From an uncultured Paracoccaceae bacterium (GTDB taxonomy: Bacteria; Pseudomonadota; Alphaproteobacteria; Rhodobacterales; Rhodobacteraceae), in contig CANMEQ010000004.1 in the NCBI GenBank assembly GCA_947497065.1, forward strand, positions 62,001-126,000: a DNA stretch of 64,000 bases, read 5' to 3'. Each line of letters opens with the position of its first letter. Position 1 is the first letter of the stretch. Below the pieces are notes generated by a model. It was not told the origin of the DNA. It saw only the letters and a list, made by a program, of their open reading frames with translations, and did not search any database. The translations under genes were made by a program, and so were the position numbers. This document shows positions 7,459 to 28,843 of the stretch, in pieces.

Positions 7459-8999
7459 CCTGCGTCTTGGACCCACAGCTCTACACGGCGATTGGTTTGT
7501 TGCCCCCAAACGGTATCGTCGCATGCCATTGGTAATGCTTCTCCAAAGGCCTCTGTTTCGATCGATACATTGTCTGGGATAACACCACCCAGTGCGCGTT
7601 CGACATCCCGTCGAACAGACTCAGCCCGAGCTGCGGATAGATCTCTGTTCGCCTCGGCTGGCCCACGACCATCGCTGAACCCGACGAACATAATATTTTG
7701 CCCAGCAAAACGGCCATCTCGTATCGACTGCGCCAGCTGAAAGACGTTTGATCGTGATTGTCCGTCTAATCGTGTCGAGCCAGGCTCAAACCGGAACGTG
7801 CTCGACATACGCACCTGTGGAGACAAGATACGGATCATTCTTTGTAGCTCTCCCAATGGCACTTCAGTCCCCGCGCTACGGATTGCATTGGCCAAGCGGT
7901 CCCCCTGATCAGACAAGGGAATGGGCACCGCCGCAAGGTCTACAAACCCGGCGCGCCGAATGACCAATTGTGCCGATGGCGACCTTAACCATTCTAAAAA
8001 CGCATCTTCCATCGGGTGAAGGTTACGTTGTGGAAGGTATAAGAAAATTGGGAATGTAAGAGGGTAGTCTTCGGTCTTGAGCGTCAAAAATTCGGCATTT
8101 GAACGCAAGCCACACGGGCCATCAAGTGCAAGAGGTTGCGTGTTTTGCGTATTTCCGTATGGCAAGATCGCAAGGCTTCCTTTCGTGGAAGCGACCTGCG
8201 CGGTGACTTCGCCTAGATCGCTCAACTTATTGAGTGATTGATCCAAGGAAAAACCGAAGGGGCGCATAAATCTCTCTTCAAAACCAACCAATTGATTGTC
8301 GAGATCATCCAACAAATGGACATCGAATTGGTCGGATTGGCCTGACAACGCGCTGGTCAGCTCCGCCATCGAAACAGTCTGCAAGTCGGATCCGGCGTCA
8401 GTGACGGGAACCAAAGCGTCGAGCGCTAAAATGCGGCCCTGACGCGCCGTATTGAGCTGCCCCAGCCCTTTAGTCCTTGCTACTTCCAATTCAGTCTGAC
8501 GAAGCTCTCGCATAGACATTAGAATATCAGCATCTTGCGCAATAAATTCTCCAAATGCCAAGTCGGGGGGGCTTGCATCAAGGTGAATCTTCAACGCGAT
8601 CGAGGTATCGTCGCGCGCTAAGTCAAAATCACCCAAGTTCTCTTGGACGGACCAACCGTTTTCACGTGCATAAGCATCGATCAACGATGGAAGGAGAACA
8701 TCAGCCATTCGAGGGGCGCCGATCATGCGGAGTCTTGGGGTGTATGGGTCAAGGACAGGGCAGTCAGGCCCGTCACAAGTCATACCATCAGCGCGGAACG
8801 ACAACGGCCCAGTTTCGACACCCAATGTAACTGTCTCGCCATCATAGCCAACAAAACGGCCAACGACTGCAACTGAATTATCTTCACTGCGGAACGTCAC
8901 CATTTCGGCATGTACGGCGCCGATACAAAGAAAGTGTGCAGCGAAAACCGCTGCACACCTATTCCATCGCATAGAATTTTTAAACTTACGCCTCATCAT
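7455..8999 (-). CDS. Exported phosphate-binding-like / OmpA-domain fusion protein
   Basis: A 514-aa protein with an N-terminal signal sequence (hydrophobic stretch about 13-30, cleavage near AVHA-EM). A central type 2 periplasmic-binding-protein fold of the PstS class spans about 60-380 (start [18 protein letters not shown]). A C-terminal OmpA-like peptidoglycan-binding domain spans about 395-514 ([28 protein letters not shown]). The combination suggests a periplasmic sensor or binding protein tethered to the cell wall. It overlaps the preceding gene by ATGA and lies two genes downstream of secA. No pst transporter genes are nearby, so phosphate binding should not be assumed. Confidence 0.75.
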
Positions 9000-21435: not shown

Positions 21436-22641
21436 CTAGCGCAGAATTGCGCGTATCAATGCATTTGTCGGATAGCATGTTGCAGCGCGGTCATTCGCTT
21501 CTTGCCACGCACCTATCGAGCGGCGCGTCTTAAAGCCAACCAAACCGTCGGCGCCACCGACGTCAAAGCCACTGGCCACCAAAATTTGCTGCATCGATAA
21601 AACATCTGCGGCACGGATAGTGTCACCCTGCCCCCATGATCTCTCAAAATCTGACGATCCAAACGCGATCCGGTCTCCCACATGCCCCACGTACAATGCG
21701 TAAGCGTCACTTTCATTGTATTGCTTCAAAACGTAGAAATTATCCGTGACCAAAAATGCAGGCCCGTCCTGACCCGCAGGCATCAAAAGATACCCGGTCT
21801 CGGCGCGCTCGGCCGGCGGGAATGGACCACCGCTAACTCGTGTTACGCCTTCGCGTTCCCAGTCCGCGATACTGCGCCCCTGATCTGGCCCTTCCTCGGT
21901 GCAAGAGACATGGCTGGGGACATGAACCTCGAAACCCCAATCCCTATTCGCACGCCAATCATGATCTTTCAGGTAGTGACCGATGGAGGCCAAAGTGTCC
22001 GCTTCCGACGACCAGATATCCCTATGGCCATCGCCATTTCCATCAACTGCGTACTCTAAAAAATTTGTTGGCATGAATTGCGGTTGCCCAAGAGCGCCCG
22101 CCCAAGAGCTCCGCATCTGTGATCGGTGCGCATATCCAGATTGAACGATTTGCATCGCCGCAACCAACTCATTTGAAAAATAGTCTCGGCGTCGACCTAA
22201 ATAGGCATGTGTCGCAAGGACATCGAAGGCATCATGTGGGATTGAAGCGCGCCCAAAACTGCTTTCGCGCCCCCAAATGGCGAGAATAACATGCCCTGGA
22301 ACGCCCGTCGCTCGCTCAATTTCCCTGAGCGTCCCCGCGTGCGTTCGATAATGCGATTGCCCAATACGCGTGTTGTCACGCAGCCCGCCGGCAGAAAAAT
22401 ACCTGCGCGGATGACGGAATTCGGCTTGCGATTGCCCAGCAGAAACACTCAGCCCAGGTAGCGACGGATCGAGGGTGATGTTTTCGAGGATCGACTGAAA
22501 AGTTTGCTCTGTAACACCTTGGGAACGGGCCATCGGCCAAAGCGTGTTTTCAGCCCAGGTTGAAAATTCATCATTCGCTTGGGAGAGCGAGGGGCCGCCA
22601 AACAGCACCACCACAATCGATAAAACGCGAAGAACACACAT
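21436..22641 (-). CDS. Lytic murein transglycosylase, MltB family, with peptidoglycan-binding domain
   Basis: Cleaves the MurNAc-GlcNAc bond with 1,6-anhydro product formation in the periplasm. 401 aa with a signal peptide (about 1-22, cleavage near SQA-ND), an SLT_2/MltB catalytic domain (about 25-320) with catalytic Glu126 in WGRESSFG and the GALGQPQFMPTNF motif, and a C-terminal PG_binding_1 domain (VLSMQQILVASGFDVGGADGLVGFKTRRSI). No lipobox, so probably soluble. Its 3' end lies only 24 nt from the rimP promoter. Confidence 0.92.
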   Translation of the reverse strand: MCVLRVLSIVVVLFGGPSLSQANDEFSTWAENTLWPMARSQGVTEQTFQSILENITLDPSLPGLSVSAGQSQAEFRHPRRYFSAGGLRDNTRIGQSHYRTHAGTLREIERATGVPGHVILAIWGRESSFGRASIPHDAFDVLATHAYLGRRRDYFSNELVAAMQIVQSGYAHRSQMRSSWAGALGQPQFMPTNFLEYAVDGNGDGHRDIWSSEADTLASIGHYLKDHDWRANRDWGFEVHVPSHVSCTEEGPDQGRSIADWEREGVTRVSGGPFPPAERAETGYLLMPAGQDGPAFLVTDNFYVLKQYNESDAYALYVGHVGDRIAFGSSDFERSWGQGDTIRAADVLSMQQILVASGFDVGGADGLVGFKTRRSIGAWQEANDRAATCYPTNALIRAILR

Positions 22642-22749: not shown

Positions 22750-23886
22750 TTAGACTTTGACCCAAGCAGCATTGTTTTGTGACGATTCAACGCAAGCACT
22801 TATGAAACGCATGCCGTCCATCCCTTCGGAAATCCCAGGAAGAGAACCCATCGCATTTTCTCGAGGCGTGCCCGATTGAACGGCGCGAATGGCACTTGCT
22901 GCTTGATTATAGATGGTCGCGAAACCTTCGAGATACCCTTCGGGATGCCCACCCGGAGTACGGCTTACTGCTGCTGCGGCGTCATTCGCGCCCGCCCCTC
23001 CTCGGGTTAGAAGGCGCTTGGCTTCCCCGGTAGGTGTGAACCAAAGGTAGTTCGGGTCTTCTTGCGACCATTCCAAGCCGCCTTTGCTGCCATAGATACG
23101 CAATTTCAGTGCGTTTTCATTGCCCATTGCCACCTGCGAAGACCACAACATTCCTCTCGCCCCGCCATCAAAACGGAGCATTACATGGGCATTGTCATCC
23201 AAAATGCGCCCATCCCCGAAGGCATGCAAATCTGCCGCAAGACTTTCGACCGATAAACCACTGACAAAACAGGCCAAATTATGTGCATGGGTCCCGATGT
23301 CGCCGACGGATCCGCCAGCACCAGATCGCGCTGGATCTGTACGCCACTCCGCTTGTTTCACACCTTCGTTTTCCATCGGTGTGGCGAGCCAGTCTTGCGC
23401 GTATTCAACCTGCACAACTCGAACATCGCCCAGATCACCAGCTTCAACCATTGCGCGTGCCTGCCGGATCATTGGGTATCCGGTGTAGTTATGGGTAAGC
23501 ACAAATAACGCATCACTTTCAGCGGCAGATCGCGCTAGCGCATTCGCATCCTCCATCGTTGACGTAAGAGGCTTGTCGCAGATCACGTGGATGCCTTTGC
23601 TTAAAAACGCTGCTGCCGCGGCACAGTGAACATGATTGGGTGTCACGATACTCACCGCTTCAATTCCATCTGCGCGCGCTACTTCAGCCTCGGCCATCTC
23701 GGAAAAGGACCCGTAGGACCGCGCAATGCCGAGCGTTTGCGCACTTGCTTCAGACTTTTCGGGTGTCGAAGACAGCGCACCGGCAACCAAGTCAAACTGA
23801 CCATCGATCCGGGCTGCTATGCGATGCACCCCACCAATAAATGCGTCGTTCCCGCCACCGACCATGCCCAAACGAATACGCGTCAT
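22750..23886 (-). CDS. Gfo/Idh/MocA family NAD(P)-dependent oxidoreductase
   Basis: 378 aa. N-terminal Rossmann fold (RLGMVGGGNDAFIGGVHRIAA, residues 4-24), the DKPLT motif near 103-107 with the conserved Lys, and the C-terminal αβ domain with GDIGTHAHNL (His of the catalytic region). These enzymes oxidise or reduce sugar hydroxyls, often at C3 of glycosides or on inositols. Overlaps the upstream XI-like gene by ATGA, so the two act together. The substrate is unknown; the neighbourhood points to a plant- or algal-derived glycoside or uronide. Confidence 0.85.
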   Translation of the reverse strand: MTRIRLGMVGGGNDAFIGGVHRIAARIDGQFDLVAGALSSTPEKSEASAQTLGIARSYGSFSEMAEAEVARADGIEAVSIVTPNHVHCAAAAAFLSKGIHVICDKPLTSTMEDANALARSAAESDALFVLTHNYTGYPMIRQARAMVEAGDLGDVRVVQVEYAQDWLATPMENEGVKQAEWRTDPARSGAGGSVGDIGTHAHNLACFVSGLSVESLAADLHAFGDGRILDDNAHVMLRFDGGARGMLWSSQVAMGNENALKLRIYGSKGGLEWSQEDPNYLWFTPTGEAKRLLTRGGAGANDAAAAVSRTPGGHPEGYLEGFATIYNQAASAIRAVQSGTPRENAMGSLPGISEGMDGMRFISACVESSQNNAAWVKV

Positions 23887-24941
23887 TGGTCAATTCCCAA
23901 CATTTTACGGTTTGCGGCTTCGTCCGCCCCCCCATCGGCAAAGTCATCAAATGCTCGTTCGGTCACGCGAATGATGTGGTCCTTTACAAATTGTGCGCCT
24001 TCGCGGGCACCGTCTTCTGGATGCTTGATGGCGCATTCCCATTCGACCACAGCCCAACCGTCAAAGTTGTTCGCAGCCATTTTGGAAAAGATCGCTGCGA
24101 AATCCACTTGGCCATCACCCAGACTGCGGAAACGCCCTGCACGATCGACCCACGGTTGATAGCCGGAATAAACACCTTGGCGCCCTGTTGGATTGAACTC
24201 CGCGTCTTTCACATGGAACATTCGAATGCGGTCTTTGTAGATCTCAAGATTATCGAGATAATCGAGGCACTGCAGCACGTAGTGAGACGGGTCATAAAGC
24301 ATGCACGCACGATCGTGATTTCCTGTGCGTTCCAAGAACATTTCATAGGTGACGCCATCATGAAGATCTTCGCCCGGGTGAATTTCATAGCACACGTCAA
24401 CACCGCAGTCTTCTGCATGATTCAAAATGGGCAACCAACGAGCAGCTAGCTCATCAAATGCGGTTTCAATCAAACCCGCAGGACGTTGCGGCCATGGATA
24501 AACATAGGGCCATGCCAAGGCCCCAGAAAACGTTGCGTGGGCCCCGATGCCCAAATTCATCGAAGCGGTCAGTGCTTTTTTCACCTGGTCGACAGCCCAT
24601 TCCTGACGGGCTTTTGGGTTCCCCTGTACGTGAGGTGCCGCAAATCCGTCAAATGCGGCGTCATAGGCAGGATGTACCGCCACAAGCTGACCTTGAAGGT
24701 GGCTCGACAATTCGGTCACAGCAATTCCGTTGGCCGCAGCTTGACCCTTAAAATCGTCGCAGTAGGCCTTACTCTCTGCCGCCTTTTCCAAATCAAAGAA
24801 CCGCCCATCCCACGATGGAACCTGCACCCCTTTGTAGCCGCAATCAGCTGCCCATTTCGTGATGCTATCCCACGAGTCAAACGGAGCGTCATCCCCAGCA
24901 AACTGCGCCAAAAACAGCGCGGGCCCTTTGATCGTTTTCAT
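23883..24941 (-). CDS. Xylose-isomerase-like TIM barrel protein (sugar isomerase/epimerase or lyase)
   Basis: 352 aa of the AP_endonuc_2/XI-like TIM-barrel superfamily. Likely metal ligands are visible in CYEIHPGE (about 186-193), YDPSH (about 220), MFHVKD (about 246) and VEWECA (about 302). Members are annotated as sugar phosphate isomerases/epimerases, but recently described relatives paired with Gfo/Idh/MocA dehydrogenases cleave 3-keto-glycosides by β-elimination. ATGA overlap with the oxidoreductase favours such a pair; the exact reaction cannot be read from sequence. Confidence 0.8.
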   Translation of the reverse strand: MKTIKGPALFLAQFAGDDAPFDSWDSITKWAADCGYKGVQVPSWDGRFFDLEKAAESKAYCDDFKGQAAANGIAVTELSSHLQGQLVAVHPAYDAAFDGFAAPHVQGNPKARQEWAVDQVKKALTASMNLGIGAHATFSGALAWPYVYPWPQRPAGLIETAFDELAARWLPILNHAEDCGVDVCYEIHPGEDLHDGVTYEMFLERTGNHDRACMLYDPSHYVLQCLDYLDNLEIYKDRIRMFHVKDAEFNPTGRQGVYSGYQPWVDRAGRFRSLGDGQVDFAAIFSKMAANNFDGWAVVEWECAIKHPEDGAREGAQFVKDHIIRVTERAFDDFADGGADEAANRKMLGIDQ

Positions 24942-25098
24942 ATTCTTCCTCCGTTTATCAGCAGAAATTCTACTGATGTTTGTCTTTCATGGGTCTCAAT
25001 AGTCGATCTAATCGTTACATAGATTGCTAGACGGCCCAGCTTGGCATCACATTTGTAGATTGTGAAATACGGGGCAATTAAAAAGATTCATTTTTTGG

Positions 25099-25124
25099 GG
25101 AACCTATTTCAATTCCAGACGTTT
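25099..25124 (+). promoter_or_regulatory. EcfG-like promoter of a candidate small RNA
   Basis: GGAAC (25099-25103), 16 nt, CGTTT (25120-25124). This is an exact match to the alphaproteobacterial general-stress sigma factor consensus GGAAC-N16/17-CGTT. Predicted start near 25130 is directly in front of two hairpins. Chance occurrence cannot be excluded, and EcfG is not universal in Rhodobacteraceae. Confidence 0.45.
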
Positions 25125-25129
25125 GATTG

Positions 25130-25215
25130 TCGATAAAAAGGAAAATGGTCCCCTCCCTACATTTTCCTTTATCTGCCAGAAGCCCTCAGGATGTCCCCTC
25201 CTGAGGGCTATTTTA
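25130..25215 (+). ncRNA. Candidate trans-acting small RNA with twin C-rich loop hairpins
   Basis: No ORF fits this stretch. Hairpin 1 has perfect 10-bp arms AAGGAAAATG (25138-25147) / CATTTTCCTT (25160-25169) and a 12-nt loop GTCCCCTCCCTA. Hairpin 2 has perfect 11-bp arms AGCCCTCAGGA (25181-25191) / TCCTGAGGGCT (25199-25209), with GTCCCCTCC spanning loop and arm, then ATTTTAT. The shared GUCCCCUCC is complementary to Shine-Dalgarno sequences, as in GsrN of Caulobacter and CcsR-type RNAs of Rhodobacter. A matching promoter lies upstream. On the minus strand the same DNA forms the GH31 operon terminator. Confidence 0.5.
25135..25169 (-). terminator. Intrinsic terminator downstream of the GH31 gene
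   Basis: On the minus strand the 10-bp stem (25160-25169 / 25138-25147) is followed by TTTTT (25139-25135) and ATC. It lies about 50 nt after the GH31 stop. A second stem, 25181-25209, is only 9 nt after the stop. Together they could end the GntR-uxaC-GH31 transcript before the XI-like/Gfo-Idh pair. Confidence 0.7.
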
Positions 25216-25217
25216 TG

Positions 25218-27578
25218 CTACAATAGAAAAGACGACTGAGGTTGGACTTGAGTGCCCTGCACCATGAGTTTTCGTGTTTCTGAGTGAGGCAGCTTGACCA
25301 CCGCAGGCATATCCATTTGCGCGCTAGTGCCGAGTTGTTTCCAGTTTAATCCTATTTCGGTGCCTGACGTTGTAACTTCAAACGCGATCACCGAACGCGG
25401 CGAAGCGACTGACATGCCATCATCTTCGAATAAGACACTACTCCCCTGCCCGTTGGCCTGTGTCGGGAAGACGTGCAGCTCCTTTTTATCTTCAGGCTCG
25501 ACGCTGGCACGTCTCGTTTGGGTCGACATCGTCAATACCGCACCGGCACGTACGAAAATAGGGATCGAGGCTAAATCAACCGTTCTGGTTACCGTGCAAC
25601 CCGGCGCATACCAAATGCCATTCTCAAAATCCCACCAACCTGTTGTGTTTTCGGGGAGATAGATACTGCGTTCCGTCGCGCCTTTATCCACCACATTTGC
25701 AACCAGAAGATCACGGCCCAACATAAAATCATCGGTTTCGTTCCACGCGAGAGGATCGTCGGGATGATCCAGGAATAGAGGCCGCAGCATTGGCTGATCA
25801 TCCTCAACCGCTTGCCATAGCAAAGTATAGAGATACGGCAGTAGTCGGTATCTCAGCTTTAGAGCCGCGCGAATATGAGTGGTGACCTCGGGGTACATCC
25901 AAGGCTCGTTTACTGTGCCGTCGTCATTCCAGGAATGAATGGTGAAGCGGGGGTGGAAAATACCGTTCTGAACCCAACGTACAAACAGCTCCGGATCAGG
26001 GCGGGGGCCGGAAAAGCCACCAACATCATGCCCGACGTTAAACAAACCAGACAGGCTCATTCCCAAGCCAGTTCGGATATTATAGCGCAGGGTTTTCCAA
26101 TCGGTCCGGTTGTCGCCTGACCAAGTCTGCGCGTATCTTTGGACACCGGGCGCACCAGATCGGCAAATCAGGTAGGGTCGCTTGTCTGGGCTATGGCTTT
26201 GTTGCGCCTCAAACGACGCGCGTGTCATGAGGACGGAGTGAAGAGGGCGAATGAGCCCCACATCAATTGGCGTGCCGAAGCCATCGCATTGCGCGGCGCT
26301 GTCCCAGATCTCGTATTCATTATTATCGTTCCACGAGGATTGAATTCCGTGTTCCAGCAATTGGGTTGTGACGCCGTTCTTCCACCACTCAATTGTCGCA
26401 GGGTTCGTGAAATCAAGATGTGAACCTTCGTCATCCCAGAATACTGACCGTTCCGGTTCGCCGGTTTCGCTATCTTTTATAAATAGCCCAGCGGCTGCAG
26501 CTGCTTCGTATTGTGGATGGTCTTGTAAAAGGCACGGCTTGATATTGGCGATCAATTGAATTTGCGCATCGTGGAACTTGGTTACCAAAGACGCGACATC
26601 AGGAACTTTCTGGGTATTCCAATGAAAAACGTATCGTTTCGGTCCGATCGACGTATAGCCCGATGACATTTGAAAACTGTCGCATGGCAAATCGTGCTGG
26701 GCTATTTGTTCTACGAAGGTTTCGAGTTGGGCCTGCGCGTCATCAGCGTCCGTGTAGGACATCGTTGAGCCTGAATACCCCAACGTCCAACGGGGTGGAA
26801 AGGCTGTTCCACCTGTCAAACGAGCCTGCGCCTGAACCAGGTCCAACATTTGTGGCGCCCAGCGCATGTAATAGTCTAGATCGCCGTCTTCGGCACGGTA
26901 GACCCGATATGGCGCGTGATAGTTGTCCAGCTCATTCCCCAGATCAAACCAACAGCTGGAAAGGTTGTCGTAGAAGATAGACCATGCTCCAGCGTTTGAA
27001 GTCTGTGTCATGGTAAACGGGATATGTTTGTAAAGCGGGTCAGTCTTTTCAGCGTCATACCCCATGGCATCGAGGTTGCGCATCTCATAGCGTTTGCCGC
27101 GCCGATCTAGAGGCCCCGTTTTTTCACCCAAGCCGTGAACAGGTTCGTCGGAGTTTCGGCGCAAGTAGTGTTCGTGACGGTGGTCCTTTACCCCCAACAA
27201 AACGCCGCCCGTGGGTCGGTCTTCAACAAATGTAACCCATGTATCACAGATCTTGGTCGCCCAAGAAAAATGTAATGGGTGAGATATCGTGAGCCGCAAG
27301 TTCGGCGTGGACAGGTTTATGGTTTCGCCGAGGTCGATGGTAACATTTGAGCCTGAAAAACCTGCTAGATCATCACGGTTGCGACCTTCCCAAGGAACGT
27401 CCTTGTCTGGCGCAATAGACCATGTTCTTGGCAATCTCCATTCTCCGTCCTTCTTCAGGGACACGCGAAAAAGCATATCCTCAAGGACCATAACACGCAG
27501 GATGTGGCGGTCTTCGACGCGCAGTTCGACCCCGTTTTCAGACGTTCTTTCTACCACCCAACGTCGGAGAGTTTTCAT
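25218..27578 (-). CDS. Glycoside hydrolase family 31 (alpha-glucosidase/alpha-xylosidase type)
   Basis: Retaining exo-acting α-glycosidase of 786 aa. The catalytic nucleophile Asp418 sits in SWNDNNEYEIWD, and the acid/base Asp is expected in TWSGDNRTDWKTLRYN. N-terminal galactose-mutarotase-like β-sandwich, then the (β/α)8 barrel (PPRWTLGYSGSTMSY) and C-terminal β domains. No signal peptide, so it acts on imported oligosaccharides in the cytosol. Start at 27578 is fixed by an ATGA overlap with the upstream dehydrogenase. Substrate unknown; α-glucosides, α-xylosides or α-linked uronide oligomers are possible. Confidence 0.9.
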   Translation of the reverse strand: MKTLRRWVVERTSENGVELRVEDRHILRVMVLEDMLFRVSLKKDGEWRLPRTWSIAPDKDVPWEGRNRDDLAGFSGSNVTIDLGETINLSTPNLRLTISHPLHFSWATKICDTWVTFVEDRPTGGVLLGVKDHRHEHYLRRNSDEPVHGLGEKTGPLDRRGKRYEMRNLDAMGYDAEKTDPLYKHIPFTMTQTSNAGAWSIFYDNLSSCWFDLGNELDNYHAPYRVYRAEDGDLDYYMRWAPQMLDLVQAQARLTGGTAFPPRWTLGYSGSTMSYTDADDAQAQLETFVEQIAQHDLPCDSFQMSSGYTSIGPKRYVFHWNTQKVPDVASLVTKFHDAQIQLIANIKPCLLQDHPQYEAAAAAGLFIKDSETGEPERSVFWDDEGSHLDFTNPATIEWWKNGVTTQLLEHGIQSSWNDNNEYEIWDSAAQCDGFGTPIDVGLIRPLHSVLMTRASFEAQQSHSPDKRPYLICRSGAPGVQRYAQTWSGDNRTDWKTLRYNIRTGLGMSLSGLFNVGHDVGGFSGPRPDPELFVRWVQNGIFHPRFTIHSWNDDGTVNEPWMYPEVTTHIRAALKLRYRLLPYLYTLLWQAVEDDQPMLRPLFLDHPDDPLAWNETDDFMLGRDLLVANVVDKGATERSIYLPENTTGWWDFENGIWYAPGCTVTRTVDLASIPIFVRAGAVLTMSTQTRRASVEPEDKKELHVFPTQANGQGSSVLFEDDGMSVASPRSVIAFEVTTSGTEIGLNWKQLGTSAQMDMPAVVKLPHSETRKLMVQGTQVQPQSSFLL

Positions 27579-28843
27579 ACCGAACCCTTCGCTAGTAAAC
27601 TTTGCACCTGAAGGGTCAAGTCCGCGAGCCACGCATCAGGTACGCCTCGCACGCCAATGAGGTCTGCCAAACCACTACAGATCTTTGGAACGTCATCGGA
27701 TGTCTCAATAATTTGCGCGATCGTTGACGCGTTAGGATCAACCAACGCGCTTTTGGCTTCGTGTTTTCGGAGTACAAATGCGATCCAAGCAGCCACAACT
27801 TTCTGTGCTTGAGGTGCTAATTCTAACTCATTGATCAGCGGCACGATCCTTTCGCGCAATTTTAGACTTCCGTCCGCACCGATCTGTTCCAAGGCATGGC
27901 GCATTTCCACGACCGCGAAACGGTCCACCAATGCGGCGCGATACGCGGGCGTCGAGGCTTGCACCGGCGTTGGCAACGTCAGCTGTGCTTCATCCCACAA
28001 TTGTTCAACAGCACCATTCAATGTTTGGTCAGCCATAGCTTCGTGCACGAAGCTATACCCGGCCAGTTGACCGGCGTAGGCCAGCCATGAATGCGCCGCG
28101 TTCAAAAGGCGCAACTTGCGCTTTTCAAAAGGAGCAACATCGGATGTGATTTCAGCACTCGAGATATGCCAATCCGGGCGTTGCCCAGCAAAGTTATCTT
28201 CGATTACCCATTCGCTGAAGCTTTCGGTAATGACTGGCGCGGTCACTTCAGAAGTCGCAGGTGTGATCCGGTCGACCATCGTGTCGGGAAAGCACGTGGA
28301 CGGGTCGAGCTGCAGTCCAGCTTCGTCTGCAAACTTAGAAAGAGCATTGCCTAACTTGGTGCCATTCTCTGACAGGTTATCGCAGCTCATTACGGTCAGG
28401 GCTGGAAGCCCAGCGCTTGAACGAAGGGCCAATCCATGGGTCAAAAGCCCTATCGCGCTTTTGGGCTGTCCGCTCAAATCTGCGCGGATTGCATCACTAT
28501 TCAGGTCCAAGGTGCCCGTTTGCGGATCGAGGCAATAGCCCTTTTCAGTAATAGTTAGCGTAACGATATGGAGGTCCGGATCGGCAAAGGCCTCAATCAC
28601 CGCTTGAGGATCACGTCCGGCGTGTATCATTCGGTCATGAATTGAAATCTCGCGACTCTCTGTGCCGTTTGCCCCCCGAACCGCTAGGGTATAACCGCCA
28701 CCGTCCGACATAGCTTGAAACAGGGAGGTATTACCCATGACAACGCCGGTTATCCGCCAGTCACCATTATTGGCCCGCGCAGTATAATCGGCTTGATGCG
28801 CGCGGTGAAAGTTTCCGATACCGATGTGGAGTATACGTGGCAT
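27575..28843 (-). CDS. Mannitol dehydrogenase family protein, probable fructuronate reductase
   Basis: 422-aa long-chain polyol dehydrogenase. N-terminal nucleotide-binding region ILHIGIGNFHRAHQ (4-17) and catalytic-site pattern KRKLRLLNAAHSWLAYAG (about 240) with conserved Lys, Asn and His. Such enzymes interconvert fructuronate/mannonate (UxuB), tagaturonate/altronate or mannitol/fructose. Next to uronate isomerase, D-fructuronate to D-mannonate reduction is the best guess. It lies 2 nt after uxaC and overlaps GH31 by 4 nt. Confidence 0.85.
   Translation of the reverse strand: MPRILHIGIGNFHRAHQADYTARANNGDWRITGVVMGNTSLFQAMSDGGGYTLAVRGANGTESREISIHDRMIHAGRDPQAVIEAFADPDLHIVTLTITEKGYCLDPQTGTLDLNSDAIRADLSGQPKSAIGLLTHGLALRSSAGLPALTVMSCDNLSENGTKLGNALSKFADEAGLQLDPSTCFPDTMVDRITPATSEVTAPVITESFSEWVIEDNFAGQRPDWHISSAEITSDVAPFEKRKLRLLNAAHSWLAYAGQLAGYSFVHEAMADQTLNGAVEQLWDEAQLTLPTPVQASTPAYRAALVDRFAVVEMRHALEQIGADGSLKLRERIVPLINELELAPQAQKVVAAWIAFVLRKHEAKSALVDPNASTIAQIIETSDDVPKICSGLADLIGVRGVPDAWLADLTLQVQSLLAKGSV

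Follow-up and report, generated by a model that had tools for sequence, protein, structure and literature searches.

The predicted small RNA lies on the plus strand of the window (the whole 64-kb stretch of DNA analyzed here), in an intergenic gap of 276 nt (24942-25217) amid sugar-use genes. An exact EcfG-type promoter sequence, GGAAC-N16-CGTT, at 25099-25123 is followed by twin hairpins and a U-rich end that reaches 25216. A simple scan for sigma-70-like promoters found none in this stretch or in the corresponding stretch of G014, a genome of the same genus that serves as our main comparison. The locus is laid out as follows:

21436-22641, minus strand: MltB-type lytic transglycosylase gene (mltB), a flanking marker conserved in G014
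22750-24941, minus strand: a Gfo/Idh/MocA oxidoreductase gene and a xylose-isomerase-like gene, which separate mltB from the RNA here but do not in G014
25099-25123, plus strand: EcfG-type promoter by pattern match (GGAAC at 25099-25103, 16-nt spacer, CGTT at 25120-25123), its nine bases kept in G014
25130-25216, plus strand: predicted small RNA, about 85-90 nt long, its start placed from the promoter and its end from the terminator
25137-25170, plus strand: hairpin 1, 11-bp stem with exposed loop GUCCCCUCCCUA (25148-25159), from the fold and from stem and shuffle counts
25181-25209, plus strand: hairpin 2, an intrinsic terminator with an 11-bp stem and loop UGUCCCC (25192-25198), with an equivalent on the plus strand of G014
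25210-25216, plus strand: U-rich tail ATTTTAT, from the sequence and a terminator scan
25218-27632, minus strand: GH31 glycoside hydrolase gene, a convergent neighbor that also lies beside the RNA in G014

An earlier note on this DNA, made from the letters and their open reading frames, had proposed a candidate stress-regulated small RNA here. Its exact promoter and 276-nt gap are both borne out by measurement. A bare promoter match, at chance level in the genome that holds the window, is without weight: GGAAC-N16-CGTT occurs 4 times in the window versus 1.45 expected, and genome-wide the pattern with N16 or N17 occurs at 65 sites, versus 95 for a reversed control. Because the bare match is not significant, the case for an RNA gene rests on comparison with G014.

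Both stems are perfect over 11 bp. Hairpin 1 pairs 25137-25147 with 25160-25170 around the loop GTCCCCTCCCTA, and hairpin 2 pairs 25181-25191 with 25199-25209 around TGTCCCC and continues into ATTTTATGCT. Within the window, both strands counted, the motif GTCCCCTCC is confined to two places, 25148 and 25193; by the calculated unpaired probabilities, the TCC of the second copy is part of the hairpin-2 stem. The segment 25127-25217 folds at -34.8 kcal/mol (z = -5.96), a stability reached by none of 200 shuffles, and loop 1 is calculated to be 98-100% unpaired. Shuffles of the gap gave GTCCCCTCC twice in 0 of 2000 cases and two or more perfect hairpins of at least 9 bp in 10 of 2000, a count that may take one hairpin twice. 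Terminator-like sites are found on the plus strand of both the window and G014; hairpin 2 is called on that strand only, and G014 has the same stem followed by a T-rich tail. The earlier description thus holds for the motif in or at both loops and for the U-rich tail (ATTTTAT after hairpin 2), and needs correction for hairpin 1, whose stem had been given as 10 bp.

We searched 61 genomes with the DNA of the locus (19 from the genus, 18 from elsewhere in the family and 24 from other families in the class). The one clear non-chance match beyond the locus itself was in G014 (E = 3.4e-10); 27 further genomes gave matches at E = 0.013 or worse only. In G014 the RNA lies between the same GH31 gene and mltB, and beyond GH31 both genomes carry, by reading of the translations, uxuB-like, uxaC, GntR and solute-binding genes. 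The two sugar genes at 22750-24941 are absent between mltB and the RNA in G014, and so were either gained here or lost there.

Conservation between the two copies is selective. Upstream DNA aligns with 64 of 156 positions identical (41%), and in the promoter the -35 element is kept at 5/5 positions, the -10 element at 4/4 and the spacer at 6/16; for independent sites and a background of 41%, retention of all nine promoter bases would have a probability of about 0.0003. Within the RNA, identity is 10/12 in loop 1, 7/11 and 5/11 in the two arms of hairpin 1, and 34/35 in the hairpin-2 block, whose stem is identical. Hairpin 1 keeps 7 of its 11 pairs in G014, one of them through a double change from A-U to U-A, and loses four; as many as 228 of 500 shuffles matched the double change, and two sequences provide no proof of covariation. 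With a spacing of 7 nt from CGTT, the same as in the window, the G014 start would fall near position 1454 of its locus (L002). Folded from 1451 or later, the G014 RNA still carries CCCUCCC in the loop, and loop 1 is 90-100% unpaired except at one position (77%); with a start at 1450, one more 5' base, another fold is preferred and hairpin 1 is gone. Fixed promoter elements, loop and terminator together with a freer stem are the footprint that a transcribed RNA would be expected to leave. Of the checks that the earlier note had proposed in relatives, the loops came out as not freely varying in G014, the single relative to retain the gap (loop 2 is kept entirely), the stems as conserved in hairpin 2 and partly so in hairpin 1, and the compensatory changes as a single double change that falls short of statistical covariation.

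The RNA is found by DNA search in 2 of the 19 genus genomes, and the GH31 gene (E up to 1e-100) is present in the same two. Within the window genome, a search at E up to 1 returned no further copy apart from the hairpin's own reverse; the locus is therefore no dispersed repeat. A covariance model built from the two sequences, run with strict filters on a family sample that lies apart from G014 (394 genomes, 393 genera), found solely the window's own copy. A looser pattern of promoter plus two C-motifs matched 7 of 394 family genomes, own genome included, versus 4 of 394 for the reversed control, and a stricter promoter-plus-C-motif pattern matched 1 of 386 class genomes (own genome) and 1 control genome. 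Among the mltB loci of relatives examined, solely the window genome and G014 have a promoter with C-loops beside mltB. The gene therefore appears narrowly distributed, and a strongly diverged copy elsewhere could escape these searches. At the locus itself, the Rfam comparison that the earlier note had suggested gave no family at gathering score, with the best sub-threshold hit at E = 0.69. Elsewhere in the window, Cis2_sRNA (RF02645, Ruegeria cis2 sRNA) matches at 2424-2578 on the minus strand with 74.5 bits (gathering score 50).

We also considered a class-wide family defined by an EcfG promoter and two CCCTCC loops. A pattern scan across GTDB returned 50 stretches, the G014 contig included, and 20 of the 50 formed two hairpins under a loose test, many in GC-rich non-alphaproteobacteria. 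Because matches lie near the control level (1 of 386 class genomes with 1 control) and the stretches that pass the loose test are often non-alphaproteobacterial, we claim no wide family. The scan leaves some leads (L072, L081, L104, L108 and L113). In a Rhodospirillales metagenome-assembled genome (MAG; L072, CAMFLK010000075.1), an EcfG-type promoter and two CCCTCC hairpins with no U-tail lie at 7503-7586 on the plus strand, between a PhyR-like response-regulator gene and a CHASE3/HWE kinase gene, which is a GsrN-like position; the regulator gene is cut by the locus end and shows the Pfam receiver domain only. Three Hyphomonadaceae MAGs carry GGAAC-N16-CGTT with two C-loop hairpins (L081 2649-2736, L104 3800-3888, L113 7279-7367), and in L081 and L113 the element is flanked by a LysR gene on one side and a histidine-kinase-like gene on the other, the kinase having been tested in L081 only.

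The earlier note had asked whether the genome carries ecfG, phyR and nepR. All three are present, which rules out a missing EcfG: a canonical general stress response (GSR) locus on contig C2 holds adjoining genes for PhyR (PhyR_sigma2 and receiver domains), for NepR, which scores 60.8 bits against a cut-off of 25.7, and for a sigma factor of the ECF type (EcfG), and GGAAC-N16-CGTT also occurs there between nepR and phyR, in front of phyR. The EcfG-type sites examined at the GSR locus (L033, L150 and L151) have no C-rich stretch in the roughly 115 nt that follow them downstream. A further exact GGAAC-N16-CGTT lies at about 410150-410174 of contig C1 (L129), with CTCTCCCC shortly downstream; by reading of the sequence, it precedes an open reading frame starting MKRKAFKSSAAT.

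One close parallel is GsrN, the sigma-EcfG-dependent small RNA of Caulobacter; Tien et al. 2018 (PMC5869019) place EcfG-regulated small RNAs under a heading that calls them prevalent in alphaproteobacteria. The examples in that article come from Caulobacteraceae and Rhizobiales, and its main text does not contain the string 'Rhodobact'. The likeness of our RNA to GsrN is one of architecture: it resembles GsrN in an EcfG-type promoter directly upstream (kept in G014), an exposed C-rich loop in the 5' hairpin (in G014 only when folded from L002 1451 or later), a 3' intrinsic terminator hairpin and an intergenic location. Unlike the usual GsrN, which adjoins ecfG, nepR or phyR (the C. crescentus one is distal too), it lies away from the GSR locus, on contig C4 rather than C2, and unlike GsrN it has a second C-rich loop inside the terminator. 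katG is present in both genomes, and no matching G-tract lies between -200 and +150 of the start of its open frame.

CcsR1-4, RS0680a and the cuckoo RNAs of Rhodobacter and rhizobia are DUF1127-linked and have CCUCCUCCC loops, and in R. sphaeroides the CcsR/cuckoo RNAs are driven by RpoHI/RpoHII (PMC3927594, PMC10253847 and PMC8307010). The window RNA shares with them tandem hairpins with anti-Shine-Dalgarno loops and a promoter that suggests a link to stress. It differs in its predicted promoter, which is EcfG-type where theirs is RpoHI/RpoHII, in its loops GUCCCCUCCCUA and UGUCCCC (with GUCCCCUCC in place of CCUCCUCCC), and in the lack of a DUF1127 neighbor, the DUF1127 matches being on contigs C3 and C6. 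Both genomes in fact carry a separate CcsR/cuckoo-type locus on the minus strand (L155 1166-1455 on contig C6 of the window genome; L153 1170-1460 in G014), in which a DUF1127 gene is followed by seven hairpins, five of the seven with CCUCCUCCC loops and the last with a T-run. A model of these 14 modules, which scores sequence only and has a consensus lacking base pairs, recovers its own 14 at E = 4e-6 to 0.26 and finds nothing in the window or at L002 up to E = 10. The analogies to GsrN and CcsR drawn in the earlier note are fair as analogies, though short of family membership, given the position off the GSR locus, the lack of a katG G-tract and the unmatched cuckoo modules. AbcR1 and AbcR2 of rhizobia and Brucella share with our RNA a predicted theme of transporter down-regulation; the descriptions set the two apart, in that AbcR RNAs reportedly regulate ABC transporters in other orders, and TRAP, TTT, SBF and MFS_2 parts are predicted here. 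The literature covered on EcfG-linked small RNAs in roseobacters and their relatives, which mostly lies outside subscription journals, holds no description of this RNA that we could find.

As a guide to possible targets, we located GGAGGGGAC, the exact complement of the shared loop 9-mer. The window genome has it in 22 places, two of them in the RNA itself (reversed control, 9), and G014 in five, one of them in the RNA itself (reversed control, 7). Apart from the two in the RNA, 20 places remain in the window genome. At four of these, an ATG that begins an open reading frame of at least 160 amino acids follows after 2-3 nt, and the genes concerned encode transporter parts: DctQ, MFS_2, TctB and SBF. 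At two others (L159, L170) a start codon comes 11-16 nt later, yet by reading of the sequence these sites seem to fall within longer genes. Of the four transporter sites, that of the MFS_2 carrier recurs in G014, where it is one of four non-self places; the DctQ, TctB and SBF sites have no exact 9-mer counterpart among those four.

The MFS_2 leader ends with CCTTGGGAGGGGACATC before the ATG in both genomes that carry the RNA, and in both it forms 17 consecutive pairs with hairpin 2 at -35.0 kcal/mol, an energy that takes no account of what it costs to open the hairpin-2 stem. This value was reached by none of 30,849 sampled 60-nt windows from 464 kb (minimum -33.2) and by none of 751 gene starts sampled from 864 kb (minimum -29.5), called by a simple procedure that chooses starts partly by Shine-Dalgarno strength. 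Eight other orthologues in the genus gave -30.8 (G009), -30.7 (G005), -25.3, -21.3, -20.8, -19.8, -18.2 and -16.6. The strongest sites are thus those of the two carriers, which are also alone in having GACATC immediately ahead of the ATG; their MFS_2 proteins, however, are the closest pair as well (89% versus 81-83%). CCTTGGGAGGGG is found in three of the eight (G005, G009 and G017), all lacking a detected RNA. Since the G-rich site is strong in species with no detected RNA, it need not have evolved for pairing.

Among the top hairpin-2 scores, genes with at least three predicted membrane segments make up 4 of 20 (p = 0.28), 11 of 40 compared with 91 of 711 (p = 0.013), and 18 of 75 (p = 0.007). 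No such enrichment is seen among the top hairpin-1 scores in the 751-start sample, and a plain anti-Shine-Dalgarno control gave 6 of 20 (p = 0.04) and nothing at 40 or 75; the enrichment for hairpin 2 is weak. We rejected the idea that the RNA acts locally on genes of the sugar island. Starts of the solute-binding and GntR genes rank well in the window genome (32 and 16 of 751) but poorly in G014 (141 and 647), the G014 GntR start being the listed TTG. Overall, pairing of the C-loops with ribosome-binding sites is the likely mechanism, and the MFS_2 sugar transporter is the strongest predicted target. It is held as a prediction, a step below the mechanism, because of the MFS_2 sites in non-carriers, the neglected opening cost and the weak enrichment.

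Several other explanations can be set against these data. GsrN offers a precedent for an EcfG-controlled RNA that activates or stabilizes its targets: pairing between its C-rich 5' loop and a G-tract at the 5' end of katG mRNA raises KatG (reported in PMC5869019). Here, the katG leaders of both genomes lack a comparable G-tract, one of them showing just an ordinary GGAGG, and the best complementarity matches cover ribosome-binding sites, so that we regard activation as unlikely. Slightly less likely again is that the element is mainly the end of a sugar operon, a terminator (perhaps bidirectional) or decay block for the GH31 transcript, with a chance promoter match. In the window, hairpin 2 does end only 8 nt from the stop codon of GH31; the element and that gene also occur in the same two genus genomes, and promoter-like sites are common by chance. 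On the minus strand, moreover, hairpin 1 leads into TTTTTAT in the window, a configuration to which the terminator scan (loops of 3-8) is blind, and G014 has a minus-strand terminator-like site at 1438-1423, over the promoter. Against this, the T-rich tail of hairpin 2 is on the plus side in both genomes, where alone the terminator is called, the T-run behind minus-strand hairpin 1 is lost in G014, and an operon end leaves the retention of 9/9 promoter bases (about 0.0003) and the conserved loop 1 unexplained.

If a CcsR/cuckoo RNA had come to stand behind an EcfG promoter, this would account for the repeated hairpins with anti-Shine-Dalgarno loops; CCUCCCU also occurs in the cuckoo loops of the same genome, and cuckoo RNAs are multi-copy (PMC3927594). 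We consider such a move improbable, as the sequence-only cuckoo model finds no match, the loops differ from CCUCCUCCC and no DUF1127 gene adjoins. Most improbable by far is that the locus acts through a peptide: an open reading frame of 19 residues does lie at 25145-25204 with AAGGA in front, but the nearest ATG in G014 opens just eight unrelated residues that end at the loop, and the conserved parts are the loops and the second stem, not codons. A more ambitious version of a repressing RNA is speculative and, on balance, doubtful. It would be a young, lineage-specific stress RNA in which loop 2 and the 3' arm (GAUGUCCCCUCCUGAGG) seal the transporter ribosome-binding site up to the start codon, and the twin loops together repress a set of uptake systems that are otherwise unrelated (MFS_2, TRAP, TTT, SBF), much as AbcR does but wired to EcfG and separately evolved.

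The best reading is a real, narrowly distributed small RNA gene encoding a regulator of a kind already known, and the candidate stress-linked RNA of the earlier note is supported by the EcfG locus, the conservation in G014 and the fold. More specifically, we give a probability of roughly two in three to a free-standing, EcfG-dependent, non-coding small RNA whose C-loops repress G-rich Shine-Dalgarno regions, with MFS_2 probably among its targets. The data themselves show the promoter match, the calculated fold, the terminator pattern, the selective conservation in G014, the sigma factor gene and the complementarity; transcription, EcfG dependence, repression and target are what we infer from them. 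When the general stress response is on, RNA polymerase with sigma-EcfG would transcribe an RNA of about 85-90 nt, whose own second hairpin would end transcription. Its C-rich loops, of which that of hairpin 1 is exposed and that of hairpin 2 partly so, would then pair with G-rich Shine-Dalgarno regions and reduce translation of a small group of mRNAs, with that of the MFS_2 sugar transporter most probably among them.

If the RNA is made, this Rhodobacteraceae lineage would have an EcfG-dependent C-loop RNA in addition to, and distinct from, the cuckoo-type RNAs that its cells carry. The EcfG and RpoH regulons would then each have their own RNA competing for ribosome-binding sites, provided that the cuckoo-type RNAs are controlled here as in R. 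sphaeroides. The locus also offers a compact pairing to test, in which an RNA of about 90 nt could form 17 consecutive pairs with a transporter leader.
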